A stretch of 64,000 nt of DNA, taken from the NCBI RefSeq assembly GCF_000993805.1, contig NZ_CP009961.1:272001-336000 (forward strand). The letters run 5' to 3'. Below are positions 29,112 through 36,925 of this stretch, in pieces. The notes under the pieces were generated by a model that was given only the letters and a program-made list of their open reading frames with translations, did no database searches and had not been told where the DNA came from. Position 1 is the stretch's first letter. Every line of letters begins with the position of its first letter. The position numbers and the translations under genes were made by a program. The stretch comes from Thermofilum uzonense. GTDB taxonomy: Archaea; Thermoproteota; Thermoprotei; Thermofilales; Thermofilaceae.

Positions 29112-30044
29112 TTGTTGTTGAACGTGCTTTGTAGCGTGCTAGGTATCTTTTTATTTGTTCTGCCTTTCATAAAACATGTGTCTAAAAGTGATATAGTTAG
29201 CGTAAAGATACTAGTTCTTGTAGACGACTATGCAGGCTTTACCAACTTACTCGCAGAGCATGGGCTAAGCATCATGGCTAGTATCGAATATCGAGACGGG
29301 ACTATGTATAAGATACTATTTGACACTGGGCAGTCCGGGGAGGTCCTTTTAAAGAACATGCAGAAACTTTCTCTAAATCCCAGTGAATTCGATGCTATCG
29401 TTCTATCACATAGACACTATGATCATACGGGAGGCTTGGTAAGGCTGCTGGAGTCAACTGGATCAAAACCGGTTATAGCTCACCCAGATATTGAAAAACC
29501 CAACTACGCTGATAGAGGAGGCTTCAAGAAGTTCAACCTGGGCTTCACGAGACAAGACATTGAGGCACTCAGGATGAGAGGTGAGCTCGTACTTTCACGA
29601 AAACCTCTCGAACTCGCACCCAACGTATGGTTTCTAGGGGAGATACCGCGAGTGTACGATAATAGTTATGCGGTCAAGGGCTTTCTTACTCTGGAAGGGG
29701 GAGAAATTGTTCCCGATCAGATGCTAGACGATACGGGAGTAGCGATAAAGCTAGGTAATAAAGCGGTTGTTTTGGCCGGCTGCAGTCACTCCGGCATTTC
29801 CAACATCGCGGCGCAGGCTAAAAGGTTGACGGGTGTCGAAGAATTGAGTATTATAGGTGGATTGCATACCGCCAGCGCGACTGACAGCGAGGTCGAAAGA
29901 ATAGCCTCGGAGCTAAAAGCCCTTGGCGTGAGCGAGTTACATGCTGGGCATTGCACCGGGTTTAACGGTATCCGTGTATTTCATCGCATCTACGGTGAAA
30001 AATTAAGGATTATTCATAGCGGTTATAGAGCGATATTTGTCTAG
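29112..30044 (+). CDS. Metallo-beta-lactamase-fold hydrolase (COG1237 type)
   Basis: A 310-residue MBL-fold protein with the zinc motif LSHRHYDHTGG (near residue 100), LAGCSHSGI and IGGLHTA. This matches the COG1237 group, which includes the archaeal enzyme of pterin/methanopterin-type biosynthesis (dihydropterin ribofuranosyl aminobenzene phosphate synthase); that specific role is not shown here. The N terminus is uncertain: the longest form (TTG 29112) adds a hydrophobic leader (about 5-20), while a GTG at 29178 gives a soluble protein. It converges with the DUF554 gene. Confidence 0.78.
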   Translation: MLLNVLCSVLGIFLFVLPFIKHVSKSDIVSVKILVLVDDYAGFTNLLAEHGLSIMASIEYRDGTMYKILFDTGQSGEVLLKNMQKLSLNPSEFDAIVLSHRHYDHTGGLVRLLESTGSKPVIAHPDIEKPNYADRGGFKKFNLGFTRQDIEALRMRGELVLSRKPLELAPNVWFLGEIPRVYDNSYAVKGFLTLEGGEIVPDQMLDDTGVAIKLGNKAVVLAGCSHSGISNIAAQAKRLTGVEELSIIGGLHTASATDSEVERIASELKALGVSELHAGHCTGFNGIRVFHRIYGEKLRIIHSGYRAIFV

Positions 30045-30049
30045 ATTCT

Positions 30050-30715
30050 TTAAAAGGGTATTATGAGTGGCAAGACAGACGCGTAAAGCAGTGCTGGGAG
30101 GCCGTCACCCACCCTTATTCTCTTGAGACCTATAAGATTCACACCTATTCCTATCATTAGCACCCCACCAGTAGCCGTAATCTCGTTTACCACTATCTCA
30201 GGTAATGCCTGGCCGGCGATGCTTCCGAGTAGTGCGAGGGAACCCTGCATAAGTAATAGCGGCACTGCGCTGAATAATACCCCAACGCCCAGTGATGCAG
30301 CTAGAGCTACGCTAACGACTCCATCCATTATTGACTTAGCAAGTATAATAGAGGGGTCCCCCATCCCATCGCGTATAGAACCTATTATAGTCATTGGGCC
30401 CACGCAGAAAGTTAGGAATGCTGTCATCAAACCATCAATAAACTTACTGTCGCCACTAGTGAACCTCCCACCTAACATCTCGAGCCTATTCTGCAACCTC
30501 AGGAAAGTTCCAGTTGCTTCCCCGAGGATTAAGGAGAAGAGAAGGGCAAGAGTTCTCTGGCTCTTTAATGCCATGCTTATACCAAGATATAAGGTGAAAA
30601 GACCTATGACTTCGGGTAGAGAGTTCACGATTCTCTCCGGGACTTTTTTCTTGAAAGTTATTCCCGTCAACGCGCCCAAAACTACTGCTAGGGCATTGAC
30701 GAAAGTTCCAAACAC
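30050..30715 (-). CDS. DUF554 family membrane protein
   Basis: A 221-residue polytopic protein with six or seven hydrophobic helices. The start MFGTFVNALAVVLGALTG, the GPMTIIGSIRDG segment and the late ATGGVLMIGIGVNLIG segment are typical of DUF554 (YdfK-like) proteins, thought to be transporters of unknown substrate. It stands alone between convergent and divergent neighbours. Confidence 0.85.
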   Translation of the reverse strand: MFGTFVNALAVVLGALTGITFKKKVPERIVNSLPEVIGLFTLYLGISMALKSQRTLALLFSLILGEATGTFLRLQNRLEMLGGRFTSGDSKFIDGLMTAFLTFCVGPMTIIGSIRDGMGDPSIILAKSIMDGVVSVALAASLGVGVLFSAVPLLLMQGSLALLGSIAGQALPEIVVNEITATGGVLMIGIGVNLIGLKRIRVGDGLPALLYASVLPLIIPF

Positions 30716-30951
30716 TAGGAGGCATTAACTTGCATTTTTATATTTTTCTTTCCTTGATATTTGTAAAAGTTTCAAAGAATTTTACAGGAAAACTGATCCA
30801 TGAAAGTGAAAACAAAATCCCAGAATTTCTAAGTTAAACTCTGGAGCGTTTAAATCAGAAATCTTCCTATTTGGAATTTATCATGCTTAAACATCAAGAG
30901 GTAGACTAATATTGATACCTGTAGGGTAATCTTAGCAGTTGACGGTGAAAG

Positions 30952-31944
30952 GTGAAGGTGGAGGACGACTCATCGAGTAAATATCTTGTTTCCAAGCTTC
31001 TAGGCTTACATACACCCTTCTACCGCCTCCGCACCCTAAACAAGCTATTTAGCTTGGATAGTTCCCTTATCTACGTAAAATATGAGGGAATCAATCCAAC
31101 TGGAACCCATAAAGATAGAGCGGCTCGAGCACACGTTGCACGTGCAATACAGCTAGGAAGGGACACTATAACCGTCGGTACCTGCGGGAATTATGGCGCT
31201 GCGATATCCTACTTTGCTCGTCTCGCAGGGGTCCGTGCGGTTATATTTGTACCCAGATCCTATGAGAATAGCAGGGTTGACGAAATAAAGAGGAATGGGG
31301 CTCGTGTCGTTTTTGTTGATGGAACTTACGAGGAAGCTGTAATGCTTAGCTCTCGCGCTGCGAAGGCCAATGAATGGTATGATGCTAATCCTGGTAATTC
31401 CACCGATCAGGTGAGTTTTGAGGCCTATAGTTCCATAGCTTGGGAGATTATAAGAGACTTGGGTGATGCTCCTTTTGCCGTGGGAGTTCCTGTAGGCAAC
31501 GGTACTACACTTGTAGGCATATATGAAGGTTTTAGGAGAGCTTACCGAGAAGGTTTAGCTACACGTGTACCTAGGCTCATCGCCGGAACAACGTCGCTAG
31601 GGAACCAGATCGCTGTTTCGTGGAGCAAGGGGTCTACAACGCCCATTCCGCTCTCCCCCTCCTACGTGAGAGAGACCCCTATAAACGAGCCCTTGGTCTC
31701 CTATGTCTCATTCAACGCAGAGGAGGCTCTCCGAGCAATATATGATACAAATGGAAGAGTTTACGCTTTCAGTGATGAGGAAATGCTTGAGATGTCTCTC
31801 ATGCTTAAGGCTGTGGAGAGGATTCCTGTGTTACCGGCCTCTGTTGCCTCTCTCCTAGCCCTAAAAAGCTTTATCAAAGAGGAAGAGGTGGACGGTTCCC
31901 TAGTTGCGGTGATCACGGGGAGATGGCGGAAGATAAAGCAATAA
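30952..31944 (+). CDS. Threonine-synthase-like PLP enzyme
   Basis: A 330-residue fold-type II PLP enzyme. The Schiff-base lysine lies in NPTGTHKDRAA (near residue 50), the substrate/phosphate loop in GTCGNYGAA, and the cofactor phosphate loop in PVGNGTT. It lacks the N-terminal extension of many threonine synthases. It might make threonine from phosphohomoserine, but the next gene starts inside its 3' end (22-nt overlap), and the two partners are not threonine-pathway genes. A related beta-elimination/replacement reaction is equally possible. GGTGA repeats surround the GTG start, and a second GTG at 30958 is possible. Confidence 0.75.
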   Translation: MKVEDDSSSKYLVSKLLGLHTPFYRLRTLNKLFSLDSSLIYVKYEGINPTGTHKDRAARAHVARAIQLGRDTITVGTCGNYGAAISYFARLAGVRAVIFVPRSYENSRVDEIKRNGARVVFVDGTYEEAVMLSSRAAKANEWYDANPGNSTDQVSFEAYSSIAWEIIRDLGDAPFAVGVPVGNGTTLVGIYEGFRRAYREGLATRVPRLIAGTTSLGNQIAVSWSKGSTTPIPLSPSYVRETPINEPLVSYVSFNAEEALRAIYDTNGRVYAFSDEEMLEMSLMLKAVERIPVLPASVASLLALKSFIKEEEVDGSLVAVITGRWRKIKQ

Positions 31945-32987
31945 TTCTGTCGGAAGGACTCTACGCGTCTACAGACGGCAAAACTGCTCACGGTCTTGTA
32001 AGGAAAAGCCTTAGATTTAAGATTGTGGGAGTTATTGATAGTACTTTAGCTGGAAGGGATGCCGGAGAGGTTCTTGACGGAAAACCCCGTGGAATCAAGA
32101 TATATGCAAGTCTAGAGGATGCGTTAGGCGAACACCCCGATGCAAAATACCTCATTATAGGTGTTGCAACTCCCGGAGGTAAACTTCCAACGTTGTATCG
32201 TGAGATCATTAAAAAAGCTATTCAGAGGCGTCTAAGCATAGTCAACGGTCTTCACGAGTTTCTCAGCGACGACCAAGAAATAAGTTTGCTGGCGAAGATA
32301 TATGGTGTGGAACTCATTGATGTAAGGAAGATCTTCTACAACACAAGAATTTTCTACACAGGTAAAATAAGGGAGGTCAAAGCACTGAAAATAGTCGTCA
32401 TCGGCACCGACTCAGCGATAGGCAAGCGAACCGTTGCACACCTAATTGCAGACGAGTTAAACAGAAGGGGGGTCAAGGCTGTCTTCATTGGAACAGGACA
32501 GACAGCCTGGATGCAGGGTGCTCGCTACGTGTTTGTTCTAGACTCATTGATCAACGACTTCATTCCGGGGGTACTCGAGGACGTTGTATGGCGTGCATAC
32601 ATCGAGGAGAATCCCAAAGCAATCGTTGTGCCTGGACAAGGAGCCCTCCTTCATCCCGTCTTTCCCGGTAGCTATGAGATACTAAACCTTCTAAAACCGG
32701 AGGTCATAATCCTGCAGCACGCACCTGGTCGAAAGACCCTGGACGGCTATCCCGAGTATCCTATGCCTCCACTTGAAAAATACTTTAAGCTTGTGGAGCT
32801 CATCACTGATAGGAAGATATTCGCTTTAACCATTAACACGGAAAACCTCTCGATCGATGAGGCACGCAGAATAGCCTCCGAGCTAGAGGAGAAGTATAAG
32901 ATCCCTGTTTTGATACCCTTGGTTGACGGGGTGGGAAGAATCGTTGACCTTATAATGAAACATTATCCTCAGTTGGGTGAAACGTGA
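31923..32987 (+). CDS. DUF1611 / DgcN-like P-loop protein
   Basis: A 354-residue protein with a Rossmann-like N-terminal domain (about 1-150) and a C-terminal P-loop domain (GTDSAIGKRT, residues 161-170) that continues with FIGTGQTAWMQGA, VVPGQGALLHP and LQHAPGRKTLDGYP. This is the DUF1611 family, whose characterised members include DgcN, an N-acetyltransferase in D-glutamate catabolism. The ATG lies 22 nt inside the PLP-enzyme gene, and the end overlaps the next start by 4 nt (GTGA), so the three products probably work in one pathway. Confidence 0.75.
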   Translation: MAEDKAIILSEGLYASTDGKTAHGLVRKSLRFKIVGVIDSTLAGRDAGEVLDGKPRGIKIYASLEDALGEHPDAKYLIIGVATPGGKLPTLYREIIKKAIQRRLSIVNGLHEFLSDDQEISLLAKIYGVELIDVRKIFYNTRIFYTGKIREVKALKIVVIGTDSAIGKRTVAHLIADELNRRGVKAVFIGTGQTAWMQGARYVFVLDSLINDFIPGVLEDVVWRAYIEENPKAIVVPGQGALLHPVFPGSYEILNLLKPEVIILQHAPGRKTLDGYPEYPMPPLEKYFKLVELITDRKIFALTINTENLSIDEARRIASELEEKYKIPVLIPLVDGVGRIVDLIMKHYPQLGET

Positions 32988-34426
32988 CGGTAGACTTGAA
33001 GTGTTTTGACAAAATAGTTGTAGGTCCCGTGAAGGTGAAGAAAAGATCCTCAAGTATAAGATACGAGCTGCATTTCAACGGCGTCAGAAAGGAGTATACA
33101 CTGATTCAATCTTATCCTGAGGAAGTAAATATAAGGGGATTCGAGGAACTCGCCGTCCTTGCCGGGATTGTTCCAGCTATCAATTATGGACTCTTCACAC
33201 CCCTCATAGAGATAAAAGCTCCACTTCATGAGTTAGACTACAAATACTTCCTTGACATGATGGACATTACCGCCCGGGATATATTTGTCAATAGGATAAT
33301 AAACAAGACAGGGCTAATAAAAGAGGAATACTTACCCAAAGGAGACGTGTCACCAGAAGATGCCAAGCCTATTGCGGATGTTGACGTAAGGGAAACATTT
33401 ACGGGTACACGACTTGACTCCAGGCCAGAGGAGCACAAGTGCACTGTAATGTCCTCAGGCGGAAAGGAAAGTCTCCTGGTTTATGGCCTCCTACGGGAGG
33501 TTGGATGTGAACCATACCCTTATTTTGTAAACGAATCTGGCCGGCACTGGTTTACGGCACTCACAGCCTACAAGGGGCTCTCCTCTATGGATCCCAGGAC
33601 AAGAAAAGTATGGACTAACGTGGACAGGCTCTTTGCGTTTATCGAGAAGAATATGAGGATTGTTGTACCCTATTATTGGAAGAAAAATAAAGAGATATAT
33701 CCTGTTCGTTTGTTCTGGTATGCACACTTCATTTTCTCTGTACTACCACTTGCTGTAAAGAACAATGTGGGGAACGTCACTATGGGGAACGAGTTCGACG
33801 ACCCTACTGGGCTAACCTATGAGTTTAACGGGATACGACACTACTACGCTACATACGATCAATCACTCGATTTCGACGATTATATGACCAGCTTCATGGC
33901 TAAGAGAGGCATCGGGATTAAGCAATGGTCCCCCCTGCGCCCCATAACGCCTATTATCGTCCTCAGGATCCTCTTCAACAGATACCCAGAGCTAGGAGTC
34001 CTCCAGACAAGCTGTCACTCAACGAGAATAGAAGGGGGAGTAGTCAAACCTTGTGGAACCTGTTTCAAATGCAACGGGGTGCTACTCATGATGCTTGCTG
34101 AAGGACTCGACCCTACGATTATTAGATATGAGAGAAAACATATAGAGACTCTACCGGAAAGATTGGAGAAAGGACTTATAAGGCTTGAAGAGTCCCTTGT
34201 AAAGCATTCCAAATACTTGATAACGCAGAGGGGCTTGTGGAGCTTCTCTGAGGCGGAACCCGTATGGCACGTAGAAATGATACATTTTGACAACATTAAC
34301 GCCCGAACAGATTTTATACCTATAAGAGAGCTCCGTGAAAAGGTTCTCGACATATACGAGAAGTACACGAAGGGCTACGTGTACCTGGTAAATGGTAAAT
34401 GGCTACCGGGGTCTCGCCCAGAATAA
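32984..34426 (+). CDS. PP-loop ATP pyrophosphatase-type protein, possibly MurL-like epimerase
   Basis: A 480-residue protein with an adenylating PP-loop SSGGKES (residues 157-163) and a metal-binding-like cysteine group SCHS...CGTCFKCN (about 340-362), as also seen in QueC-like enzymes. The whole layout, an N-terminal domain of about 150 residues before the PP-loop, recalls MurL, the ATP-dependent epimerase of a terminal glutamate in some bacteria; this is a recollection and not tested. It would activate a carboxylate as an adenylate. It is the last gene of the overlapping cassette. Confidence 0.55.
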   Translation: MTVDLKCFDKIVVGPVKVKKRSSSIRYELHFNGVRKEYTLIQSYPEEVNIRGFEELAVLAGIVPAINYGLFTPLIEIKAPLHELDYKYFLDMMDITARDIFVNRIINKTGLIKEEYLPKGDVSPEDAKPIADVDVRETFTGTRLDSRPEEHKCTVMSSGGKESLLVYGLLREVGCEPYPYFVNESGRHWFTALTAYKGLSSMDPRTRKVWTNVDRLFAFIEKNMRIVVPYYWKKNKEIYPVRLFWYAHFIFSVLPLAVKNNVGNVTMGNEFDDPTGLTYEFNGIRHYYATYDQSLDFDDYMTSFMAKRGIGIKQWSPLRPITPIIVLRILFNRYPELGVLQTSCHSTRIEGGVVKPCGTCFKCNGVLLMMLAEGLDPTIIRYERKHIETLPERLEKGLIRLEESLVKHSKYLITQRGLWSFSEAEPVWHVEMIHFDNINARTDFIPIRELREKVLDIYEKYTKGYVYLVNGKWLPGSRPE

Positions 34427-34463
34427 ATTCTCGCAGAGTGTGGAGAACCTTATTATCCAGAAT

Positions 34464-35201
34464 CTACAGGTTTACATAAAATCCTTCTCGGGTCCAGGTG
34501 AGAAGGACTTTTATATTCTTTAAGTTTAGACGTGAAACGGTTTCAATCCATTTATCTGATAAAGCAATTATTGCAACTGCGCCAACAAGCTGAGCCCTAG
34601 CCTGTTCTACAAGAGATGAGAGGGCATTCAGAGATTGAAAGTCGTTAACGATGCTCTTGACGACAAGAACCTTACTATCCTTTGGGATACTATCCTTTGG
34701 GATGTGAAGGTAAACGATTTCTCCTCTCTCCCCTGACACATACGACGCCGTCAAAAGTTTCCCCCAATTACCATAAGCTCTTTCAGAAGCCACAGCGACA
34801 TCCGCAAGTAGCCAATCAGCAGCCATTACAGCCAGGCCGGCATTCCTCTCAGGATAAGTCAAAACCGTGTCAACCTCAAGGTTCGAGTAGAATTTCCAAA
34901 TAACGTAACCAACCAGGTTGAGAATACGTGGATTGAAGAGTATTCTCCACTCCTCTACAACCTCATTCTGCCTTAGAAGAGCTTCTCTTAGGGCTTTCTC
35001 AACCAGTCTTTTTTCGCGAATCGCATCAAGTATCTTTTTCGCGGTATGTCTCTCTGGAAATTGAGAATAGCTGGTGTATCTCCACAGGACCTGAGACGGT
35101 ATACCTAGAAACTCTTCCAGTTCTTTGAAAGTGTATACCTCTTTTAGACCGTTAAGAAGTCTTGCAACCACGTACGAGCTTTCTTCACTCTCACTAGACA
35201 T
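34464..35201 (-). CDS. HTH-phosphoribosyltransferase fusion regulator (GfcR/PurR-like), PRPP loop degenerate
   Basis: A 245-residue protein. The N-terminal helix-turn-helix (about 20-60; TFKELEEFLGIPSQVLWRYTS) is followed by a PRTase-like domain (about 85-245). Archaeal regulators of this build sense sugar or nucleotide phosphates. The PRPP loop is degenerate: VLVVKSIVNDFQS lacks the paired acidic residues and the T-G of a true PRTase, so it is probably a sensor and not an enzyme. Just before it, IPKDS is repeated twice owing to an exact 15-bp duplication. Confidence 0.7.
   Translation of the reverse strand: MSSESEESSYVVARLLNGLKEVYTFKELEEFLGIPSQVLWRYTSYSQFPERHTAKKILDAIREKRLVEKALREALLRQNEVVEEWRILFNPRILNLVGYVIWKFYSNLEVDTVLTYPERNAGLAVMAADWLLADVAVASERAYGNWGKLLTASYVSGERGEIVYLHIPKDSIPKDSKVLVVKSIVNDFQSLNALSSLVEQARAQLVGAVAIIALSDKWIETVSRLNLKNIKVLLTWTREGFYVNL
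34674..34703. repeat. Exact 15-bp tandem duplication inside the PRTase-like regulator
   Basis: ACTATCCTTTGGGAT occurs twice without a gap and encodes IPKDS-IPKDS on the minus strand. The two units are identical, which suggests a recent event or a slippage-prone site. Confidence 0.9.
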
Positions 35202-35245
35202 ACAAGGCCTCTATCTTAGTGATGTTATATAAGTCATTTAAGTAA

Positions 35246-36049
35246 TTATTGCGTTTTTGCATCAGGCTTCTCTTCCACATCAAGGAGACGTTCGAGCTCT
35301 TTCCGAGTTTCCTCCTGGAGTCTCTTTATCTCCTCCACTTTACTCCTTACCTTGTCGAGCCACTCCTTACTAGACTCGATACCCTTGTGAACGAAGAAAG
35401 CTATTCCTTCGTTCCTGCTCTTAAATATCCCTGCCTCGACTAGAAGGTCTATCACGTTAAGGTCACTCTGCGGGAGTCTTACAGAAGAAATTATCGTGGT
35501 GGGTGTCCGAGACCATAAGCCTGAGAAAGCCTCGCGGATAATGCGGTCCACCTCCCTAAGTGCCTCATCAATCACCTTGAAATCACCCCGCAAAACATTC
35601 AACTTGGCTGGTTCGGTAAAGGATAATGAAGCCATCGCTAAGCCTCCTTGTTTCCTCCTCTCGCGTAAGACATCTCTGAGTCTTTCAACCAGATCATCGG
35701 CCCTGTCTTCCAAGTCTTCAATCCTAGTTTCAACTTCATCTAAGACGTCGTCAATATAATCCTTAAGCTCCTCAAGGAGCACATCATCCTGTATGTTGTT
35801 CTTTAGGGACTCTACGTTAGTGAGAAATCCTTTGAATCCTCTTTTAGCCTCTAGCTTAATTCTTTTCAACTCAAGTCGGAGTTTTCTAGTCTCCGATAAA
35901 AGGCCTGCAATTTCTGATGTTTTTCCAATCTTTAAACCTTCCTCCTCGAAGGATCTTATTTTAGCTTCAAGGTTTGATAGCTTCTCCATAATCTCGGCTC
36001 GATGTCTTTCAATCTCATCGAACATACTCTTAATTGTATCATTATGCAT
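35246..36049 (-). CDS. Coiled-coil protein with a C-terminal ribbon-helix-helix-like domain
   Basis: A 267-residue soluble protein. Residues 1-150 are mostly long coiled coil. A segment near 185-235 (SSVRLPQSDLNVIDLLVEAGIFKSRNEGIAFFVHKGIE) has the strand-helix-helix pattern of small DNA-binding ribbon-helix-helix proteins, then more helix to the end. I do not know the function. Its ATG is only 2 nt from a perfect inverted repeat (36051-36067), so it may control its own promoter. Confidence 0.6.
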   Translation of the reverse strand: MHNDTIKSMFDEIERHRAEIMEKLSNLEAKIRSFEEEGLKIGKTSEIAGLLSETRKLRLELKRIKLEAKRGFKGFLTNVESLKNNIQDDVLLEELKDYIDDVLDEVETRIEDLEDRADDLVERLRDVLRERRKQGGLAMASLSFTEPAKLNVLRGDFKVIDEALREVDRIIREAFSGLWSRTPTTIISSVRLPQSDLNVIDLLVEAGIFKSRNEGIAFFVHKGIESSKEWLDKVRSKVEEIKRLQEETRKELERLLDVEEKPDAKTQ

Positions 36050-36050
36050 A

Positions 36051-36067
36051 TGTAATGTAACATTACA
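36051..36067. promoter_or_regulatory. Inverted repeat in a divergent promoter, candidate operator
   Basis: TGTAATG-TAA-CATTACA has perfect 7-bp arms. It lies between the TATA region and start of the coiled-coil gene (minus), and directly upstream of the TATA-like TTATTTAAG (36071-36079) of the flavin reductase gene (plus). One protein bound here could affect both. Confidence 0.5.
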
Positions 36068-36108
36068 AAATTATTTAAGTTTTTCCATGACGAAATACTG
36101 AGTGGAAA

Positions 36109-36645
36109 ATGAGGGAAGTTAGAAAGTTCTATTTACTCCTACACCCTCGCCCAGCTTACATTATAGGGAGTGGTTTAGTAGGAGAAAGGGTAAACTTCAT
36201 GGCTGCTAGCTGGGTTACGCCCGTAGCAGAGGAGCCGCCACTTGTAGGGGTAGCTATAGATGTTACAAGCTATACTCACGAGCTCATAATTAAATATGGG
36301 GAGTTCACCGTGAACGTTCTGCCTCTGTCCAGAATAAACGATATATATTACTTTGGAAGCCGCAGCGGCCGTAACGAAGACAAGTCGTCAAGACTAGGAT
36401 ACAAGAAGGGATCTAAGGTGAGTGCTCCTGTGCTCTTAGACGCTGTTGGCATTCTTGAGTGCAAAGTTAGCCATAGTATCAAAGCAAACGATGTCACTTT
36501 CTTTATTGGAGAGGTCGTTGAGGCCGAAGCCGACGAAGAGGTCTTTGATGAACGGATCGGTTGGAAGACCTTAAAAGCAAAAATACCTCTCCACAACTGG
36601 GGAAAACTATTCTATGATATTGGCAGAGCCCACCGTGTAGAATAG
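36109..36645 (+). CDS. Flavin reductase-like FMN-binding split-barrel protein
   Basis: A 178-residue protein of the flavin reductase/FMN-binding family. Typical features are FYLLLHPRPAYIIGSG, NFMAASWVTPVAEEPPLVGVAID, FTVNVLP and FFIGEVVEAEADE. Such proteins use FMN to reduce free flavins, ferric compounds or, in archaea, other small molecules. The TATA-like TTATTTAAG is about 34 nt before the ATG, giving a short leader. It converges with alba, 4 nt away. Confidence 0.85.
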   Translation: MREVRKFYLLLHPRPAYIIGSGLVGERVNFMAASWVTPVAEEPPLVGVAIDVTSYTHELIIKYGEFTVNVLPLSRINDIYYFGSRSGRNEDKSSRLGYKKGSKVSAPVLLDAVGILECKVSHSIKANDVTFFIGEVVEAEADEEVFDERIGWKTLKAKIPLHNWGKLFYDIGRAHRVE

Positions 36646-36649
36646 GGCT

Positions 36650-36925
36650 CTAAAGAAGCGATATGACCTCGATCTCTATGGCTGGTACAGACTTTTCCTC
36701 GCTCTCCTCCCCAACCTCTTCGCTGTAAAGCCTTATATCTCCATATTTAGTCTTACCGCCGCTCATCCTGTGGACTGCTTCCGTGACATGGGCTGCCTTC
36801 GAGATATTGTGTCCTCGCGCTTTAACAAGGATTTTCCGGCTACCCTTTTTAAGCCGCTCAAGTATATACAAAACGTAGGTGCTAACAGGCTTTTCACCAA
36901 TATAAACCACATCTGGCTCCGACAC
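36650..36925 (-). CDS. alba: Alba chromatin protein
   Basis: A 91-residue DNA/RNA-binding chromatin protein. The family signatures are VYIGEKPVSTYVLYIL at the start and ILVKARGHNISKAAHVTEAVHRM in the middle, with the basic loop residues at the nucleic-acid-binding face. The beta-hairpin loop is unusually acidic (SEEVGEESEEKS). It starts with GTG (MSEPDVV). Acetylation of the classical Lys16 in Sulfolobus cannot be transferred directly, because the residues nearby differ. Confidence 0.9.
   Translation of the reverse strand: MSEPDVVYIGEKPVSTYVLYILERLKKGSRKILVKARGHNISKAAHVTEAVHRMSGGKTKYGDIRLYSEEVGEESEEKSVPAIEIEVISLL

Follow-up and report, generated by a model that had tools for sequence, protein, structure and literature searches.

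Which reaction is carried out by three overlapping genes of the archaeon Thermofilum uzonense that encode a pyridoxal 5'-phosphate (PLP) enzyme, a DUF1611 protein and a PP-loop protein? The genes lie on the forward strand of the window, the whole 64,000-nucleotide stretch of contig NZ_CP009961.1 that was analysed, in a genome of 1.61 Mb that forms a single contig and is 99.9% complete. An earlier reading made from the letters alone (the sequence-only reading) assigned all three to one pathway, with a fold-type II PLP enzyme, a relative of the D-glutamate acyltransferase DgcN and a protein whose layout recalls the glutamate epimerase MurL, and it did not know the combination as a described pathway. 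The open reading frames (ORFs), starts, stops and the 22- and 4-nt overlaps on which it relied were all confirmed, and its interpretation was supported in part. The cassette is real and conserved, its parts are ordinary, and the set is undescribed in the literature searched, where we found no account of it. We propose, as a tentative reading, that it acylates an acidic amino acid, likeliest glutamate or aspartate, and spends ATP to invert it at the alpha carbon.

Of 398 Thermoproteota genomes, 21 contain a match to the gene 3 protein, P0003: 17 full-length orthologs (36-100% identity, the window's own copy included), one contig-end fragment (L019/L045, genome G200) and three distant relatives. 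Loci L024 and L025 are copies of L030 and L032 and were excluded from trees and counts. Every one of the 17 genomes whose PP-loop ortholog is full-length has DUF1611, and 14 of them keep the order PLP, DUF1611, PP-loop, at identities as low as 35%. The remaining three (G236, G275, G230) have a PP-loop gene flanked by an overlapping GNAT acetyltransferase gene on one side and by an asparaginase_2 gene on the other; two of them hold the PLP-DUF1611 pair elsewhere, and in G230 the contig ends at DUF1611. An ortholog profile also matches 29 of 115 genomes in the phylum of a Thermococcus metagenome-assembled genome (MAG), and 20 Thermococcales loci were retrieved from these 29. DUF1611, PP-loop and GNAT genes stand together in all 20, and the PLP gene adjoins in 18, the exceptions being L163, with an internally deleted PLP gene, and L168, which begins within DUF1611. 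Several Thermococcales copies look decayed, with stop codons within the match (G489, G448, G450, G432, G431). In the MAG locus L027, DUF1611 and PP-loop occupy a single open frame with GNAT downstream, which could be a MAG error.

A linkage control was conducted with 21 ORFs of the window from 22-43 kb. Only the three cassette genes match loci of every group tested. The other ORFs match within the genus only, except for a phosphoribosyltransferase (PRTase) protein, which also matches at L039, and Alba, which matches at 13 of 21 Thermococcales loci; beyond the genus, the genes flanking the cassette differ. Across 32 loci, the pairwise distances of the three proteins show correlations of 0.89-0.95, a level reached by none of 1000 permutations, and shared species descent explains part of this correlation. 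The neighbourhood search in other archaea that the sequence-only reading had recommended found the genes together, and the conserved linkage and co-evolution support its assignment of them to one pathway.

Neither Pfam nor NCBIfam has a family that matches P0003 at E<=1, and the PDB sequences gave no match at E<=10. The profile of its 21-member set A1 finds only two chance zinc-finger matches among PDB sequences (E 8.3 and 9.2). At a limit of E<=1, 15 of the 21 members of A1 match the MurL family NF041275, the best of them at 1.4e-9, and every other family matches two at most. When orthologs were scanned singly, six of nine matched NF041275 (E 3.4e-4 to 0.056, 11.9-19.2 bits) over the same C-terminal stretch. 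In hhalign, the orthologs align with annotated Xanthomonas MurL and three relatives at 94.4% (E 8.5e-8, 189 columns) and with QueC at 26% (E 7e-4), an uneven contest since the QueC alignment has two rows only. On the ortholog hidden Markov model (HMM), four MurL-family proteins score 7.2-18.0 bits and two QueC proteins 1.2 and -1.7, compared to 0.3 for the best of 180 shuffled sequences. Three distant archaeal relatives bridge the orthologs and MurL (hhalign 99.6% on A3, an alignment that includes one MurL-family row), and NF041275 matches two of the three (E 1.8e-8 and 1.8e-5).

The motifs agree with these comparisons. Gene 3 and MurL share a PP-loop near residue 150, NE, a conserved S..(R)P block, SC and CxxCxKC, and gene 3 has both parts of the MurL motif test, the PP-loop SGGK(D/E)S and the SC...CxxCxKC site. 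The four cysteines probably form a zinc site. Gene 3 fails the QueC motif test, as it combines C(x)12CxxCxxC with SGGKES where QueC combines C(x)8CxxCxxC with SGGxDS. The QueC family PF06508 does not match P0003 and matches 2 of the 21 members (E>=0.02), PADLOC matched QueC once (E 0.013), and no clear QueC was found in the window genome. Because profiles, hhalign, HMM scores and bridging relatives favour MurL over QueC, we call gene 3 MurL-like. Judged by its sequence, its nearest named relative is MurL, not QueC, but it is not a MurL; its chemistry is probably MurL-like as well. The layout that the sequence-only reading had recognised is thus borne out by motif, profile and HMM matches, at scores short of the MurL family cut-off.

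MurL-like genes were also seen in other settings. A 'hypothetical' protein on a Pseudonocardia plasmid (L058 5623-7032) belongs to the MurL family at 299.6 bits (cut-off 700), and the genes of two relatives, carried by other plasmids, converge on a large gene with the annotation WD40 repeat protein and overlap its end. At L046 (7445-9793) and L047 (833-3151), a distant MurL-like PP-loop gene adjoins a radical SAM gene.

Gene 2 (P0002) matches the N and C domains of DUF1611 (PF17396, E 2.9e-29; PF07755, E 2.9e-62), as had been predicted. In a tree of 58 DUF1611 proteins, the cassette members form one clade of 40 rows with a Shimodaira-Hasegawa-like approximate likelihood ratio test value of 99. 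A second archaeal class, class B, has an MR_MLE gene adjoining in 9 of 12 loci, and the three MR_MLE proteins scanned from class-B loci match Ala-Glu epimerase or DgcA models best. In bacteria, DgcA adjoins DUF1611 in Pseudoalteromonas (L115), and in Phaeobacter and Aliiroseovarius (L111, L112) DUF1611 overlaps an alanine/ornithine racemase-like gene. That the partners of DUF1611 elsewhere are isomerases supports an inverting role for the cassette. No DgcA-type enolase gene lies next to the window's gene 2, and among the cassette loci in the tree one is nearby only at L044.

The Phaeobacter and Aliiroseovarius pairs (L111 6848-9219, L112 6941-9192) are on marine bacterial plasmids and are preceded by small unknown genes. 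Beyond the cassette at L044 (3889-6425, minus strand) are genes for an MR_MLE protein (Ala-Glu-epimerase-like, 243 bits) and an M14 carboxypeptidase, and an M14 gene also occurs near the bacterial dgcN-dgcA locus L115. We also considered that, genome-wide, the MurL-like enzyme might stand in for the enolase-type epimerase, and rejected this: only adjacency differs. MR_MLE matches were found in all 34 genomes searched (some of them enolase itself), and at L044 such a gene adjoins the cassette.

MurL is described as an enzyme that needs ATP and Mg, yields AMP and works in one direction, and its proposed mechanism begins from adenylation of the alpha-carboxylate (PMC8788868, PMC5808125). D-glutamate is converted to N-acetyl-L-glutamate by EC 2.3.1.312 and 5.1.1.25 (PMC11747546). 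Joining the MurL mechanism with D-glutamate conversion of the DgcN/DgcA type gives our scheme, of which we infer the substrate, the direction and every chemical step. First, the DUF1611 protein, alone or with GNAT, would N-acylate a free amino acid, in the manner of DgcN acting on D-glutamate (we take EC 2.3.1.312 to be DgcN and EC 5.1.1.25 to be DgcA). The PP-loop protein would then bind ATP at SGGKES and adenylate the alpha-carboxylate of the N-acyl amino acid, releasing pyrophosphate. N-acyl amino-acid adenylates readily lose the alpha proton; the mixed anhydride would acidify it, and the proton would be taken off and returned on the opposite face. Hydrolysis would give the inverted N-acyl amino acid and AMP, by the route proposed for MurL. 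Earlier or later, the PLP enzyme may racemise the free amino acid or carry out an elimination or replacement on it. Hyperthermophiles would most likely use the cassette to salvage D-amino acids; in reverse, D-residues could be synthesised, with a D-amino acid as the presumed product. We hold with more doubt the wider proposal that hyperthermophilic archaea without murein possess a new pathway of stereo-inversion driven by ATP. In it, a DUF1611 enzyme would acylate and a MurL relative would adenylate and epimerise in one direction only, together with a PLP enzyme and, in most cases, a GNAT; the set would rescue D-glutamate or D-aspartate from aged proteins or make a D-amino-acid metabolite.

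Several findings weigh against acylation and inversion. P0003 itself has no MurL match at E<=1, like three of the nine scanned orthologs, and all NF041275 scores of cassette proteins are far under the 700-bit cut-off. P0002 scores 153.7 bits on the DgcN model NF041892, related but below the cut-off of 480, compared to 493.1 for the annotated DgcN of L115. No isomerase partner was found at the DUF1611 plasmid loci L110, L113 and L114, for which the gene tables are incomplete. MR_MLE proteins occur elsewhere in most genomes searched, and G166 has an MR_MLE epimerase-like gene beside the cassette; therefore, the PP-loop enzyme is not simply replacing an MR_MLE enzyme. The window's family includes four genomes in which the cassette is split (G200, G230, G236, G275), and the PLP enzyme has no firm role. 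Since GNAT accompanies DUF1611 in Thermococcales and L027, a simple scheme with one acyltransferase is incomplete. Finally, the closest solved structures to gene 3 belong to enzymes that form amides or conjugates, not to epimerases.

This last point bears on the main alternative, amide or peptide-bond synthesis, in which the PP-loop enzyme would adenylate a carboxylate and ammonia or an amine would capture it. Together with the acyltransferases, this would yield an amino acid or short peptide that is both N-acylated and amidated, for instance a solute. The structure model of gene 3 (predicted local distance difference test, pLDDT, 92.7; predicted template modelling score 0.92) is closest to QatC (9y01, Z 14.6, root-mean-square deviation 4.2 over 304 residues), QueC (2pg3, Z 13.8; 3bl5, Z 13.3) and Cap9 (9nto, Z 13.1). 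No MurL structure is in the list of structures for P0003, which we do not take as evidence. The sequence-only reading would have given way to a confident QueC match together with loss of linkage; the linkage is kept and no such match exists by sequence, but the fold search does rank structures of the QueC family highest. QueC converts a carboxylate by way of an amide, using ammonia (PMC13329287). In addition, L048 (5686-9716, minus strand) brings together a PRK06381-type PLP gene of the same family, a distantly MurL-like PP-loop gene and a GNAT fusion whose other part is a D-Ala-D-Ala-ligase-like ATP-grasp, and is possibly a variant system. This set resembles the two-gene route that leads to N-acetylglutaminylglutamine amide. 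The PP-loop sequence is nearer to MurL than to QueC, however, no ATP-grasp ligase or amidotransferase was recognised beside the main cassette in neighbour lists that do not annotate every neighbour, and the isomerases found beside DUF1611 point the other way. We regard amide synthesis as rather unlikely, and keep it because the fold relatives form amides or conjugates and L048 carries the ligase-GNAT fusion beside the same PLP family, which together are the strongest indication against inversion.

In a second alternative, the cassette would make threonine or an unusual amino acid related to it: the acyltransferases would supply a leaving or protecting group, and the replacement reaction would fall to the PLP enzyme. 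As expected, gene 1 encodes a PLP enzyme of fold type II (PF00291 PALP, E 6.5e-57), and it passes NF004996 'threonine synthase' with 423.4 bits (cut-off 266). Threonine synthases are the nearest structures to its model (pLDDT 90.7, Z 38.6). A clear homoserine kinase is present in 10 of 22 genomes with cassette genes, so threonine synthesis could still occur in some genomes. Against this, 37 of the 38 rows of the gene 1 family have D, S, Q or G at the position of ThrC Arg160, which we take to be a phosphate-binding residue, and the arginine is thus not conserved. The complete genome of the window has no clear homoserine kinase of the TIGR00191 type, to which the kinase search was confined (best E 1.4e-11, below the cut-off), and it has a second threonine-synthase-like (ThrC-like) gene, L054. 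A MurL-like enzyme would also have no place in threonine synthesis, which we consider improbable for the cassette. The PRK06381 'threonine synthase' at these loci probably has a different job, and the name is likely wrong. As for QueC-type deazaguanine chemistry on a peptide or nucleobase, the fold matches to 9y01, 2pg3 and 9nto speak for it, but the QueC family and HMM scores, the x12 instead of x8 cysteine spacing, the lack of a clear QueC in the window genome and cassette neighbours that are amino-acid enzymes make it very improbable.

The set normally has a fourth gene. The three genes of the sequence-only reading are indeed linked, but a GNAT acetyltransferase usually accompanies them, as in all 20 Thermococcales loci and L027, and it is missing in the window; no GNAT ortholog was found in any of the seven genomes of the window's genus (best E 1.6e-8, typical of unrelated GNATs). 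The idea that GNAT replaces DUF1611, prompted by L035-L037, was rejected, as L027 and the Thermococcales carry both and PLP-DUF1611 pairs lie elsewhere in the L035-L037 genomes. Asparaginase_2 genes were seen adjoining the PP-loop-GNAT module or close to the cassette (L035 8728-9669, L036 9163-10098, L038 13498-14475), and L036 and L038 also have class II aldolase genes nearby. As an obligatory partner, asparaginase_2 was dismissed: it is in 17 of 22 genomes and absent from all five genomes of group f14. F420 ligase neighbours (L041-L043) were likewise dropped as partners, being confined to f14 among cassette loci.

Table 1. Positions of the cassette genes and their motifs in the window.
Feature	Position	Strand	Basis or remark
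Gene 1, fold-type II PLP enzyme, 330 aa, GTG start	30952..31944	+	NCBIfam NF004996 / PRK06381 'threonine synthase' family
Gene 2 (P0002), DUF1611 protein, 354 aa, ATG start	31923..32987	+	N-terminal Rossmann-like and C-terminal P-loop domain; DgcN-related
Gene 3 (P0003), MurL-like PP-loop protein, 480 aa, GTG start	32984..34426	+	Sequence comparison
Gene 1/gene 2 overlap, 22 nt	31923..31944	+	
Gene 2/gene 3 overlap, 4 nt	32984..32987	+	
Lys54 of gene 1	31111..31113	+	Aligns with Lys61 of threonine synthase, presumably the Schiff-base lysine; 36/38 family rows, 2 gapped
TCGNYG of gene 1, family-specific substrate-loop motif (threonine synthase: S-T-G-N-T-A)	31180..31197	+	Family alignment
P-loop GTDSAIGKR of gene 2	32403..32429	+	Sequence
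PP-loop SGGKES of gene 3, residues 158-163, ATP pyrophosphate site	33455..33472	+	Sequence
NESGRHW motif of gene 3	33530..33550	+	N183, E184, G186, H188, W189 invariant in 18/18 orthologs
Four-cysteine site of gene 3, C344-x12-CGTCFKC (C344 + C357xxC360xxC363), putative Zn site	34013..34072	+	Sequence

Overlap sizes are kept inside the genus, at -22 in L029, L030, L031 and L033 and -19 in L032 and L034. An Rfam scan of window positions 30000-36700 gave no matches. Convergent with the cassette is the PRTase protein (34464-35201, minus strand), which has an extra N-terminal region and scores 112 bits on NF006328, under the cut-off. Its relatives adjoin the cassette or the separated PLP-DUF1611 pair at L029-L032, L034, L039, L093, L095, L096 and L097, and it is possibly a regulator. 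The Alba gene lies at 36650-36925 (minus strand), and its homologs in the Thermococcales loci already counted, and in L028, are within about 6 kb of the cassette.

If the inversion scheme is true, archaea would have built a pathway on a MurL-type enzyme, and ATP-paid epimerisation of this type would be wider than murein synthesis. To our knowledge, the host archaea have no murein. Free D-amino acids are present in hyperthermophilic archaea, and their function is called unknown in a 2018 paper (PMC6047364); the scheme would bear on why these archaea hold them. The analysis also corrects a likely misnaming of PRK06381 'threonine synthase' at these loci. Genetic tools exist for Thermococcales and, as the cassette occurs there, the scheme is directly testable.

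Four known systems resemble parts of the cassette. Gene 3 shares with MurL (NF041275, glutamyl-peptide epimerase) the PP-loop, the NE motif, SC plus CxxCxKC, a similar length and motif order and detectable homology, but it is far below the family cut-off, has its own NESGxHW motif and, at the window cassette, has no MurD2-type ligase as neighbour, in contrast to L128. The QueC, QatC and Cap9 family has the same fold and four-cysteine site and consists of ATP-using PP-loop enzymes; gene 3 differs in having no significant sequence match to it, other motifs and other neighbours. Threonine synthase of the PRK06381 group has the fold and PLP core of gene 1, whose family has the invariant motifs TCGNYG, YDANPG and NEPL instead, without the conserved phosphate-binding arginine and, in the window genome, without a clear homoserine kinase. 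Like the DgcN-DgcA pathway for D-glutamate, the cassette links a DUF1611 protein to a (predicted) stereochemical enzyme, but its candidate epimerase is MurL-like rather than enolase-type, a PLP enzyme and GNAT are added, and its DUF1611 proteins form a separate clade.

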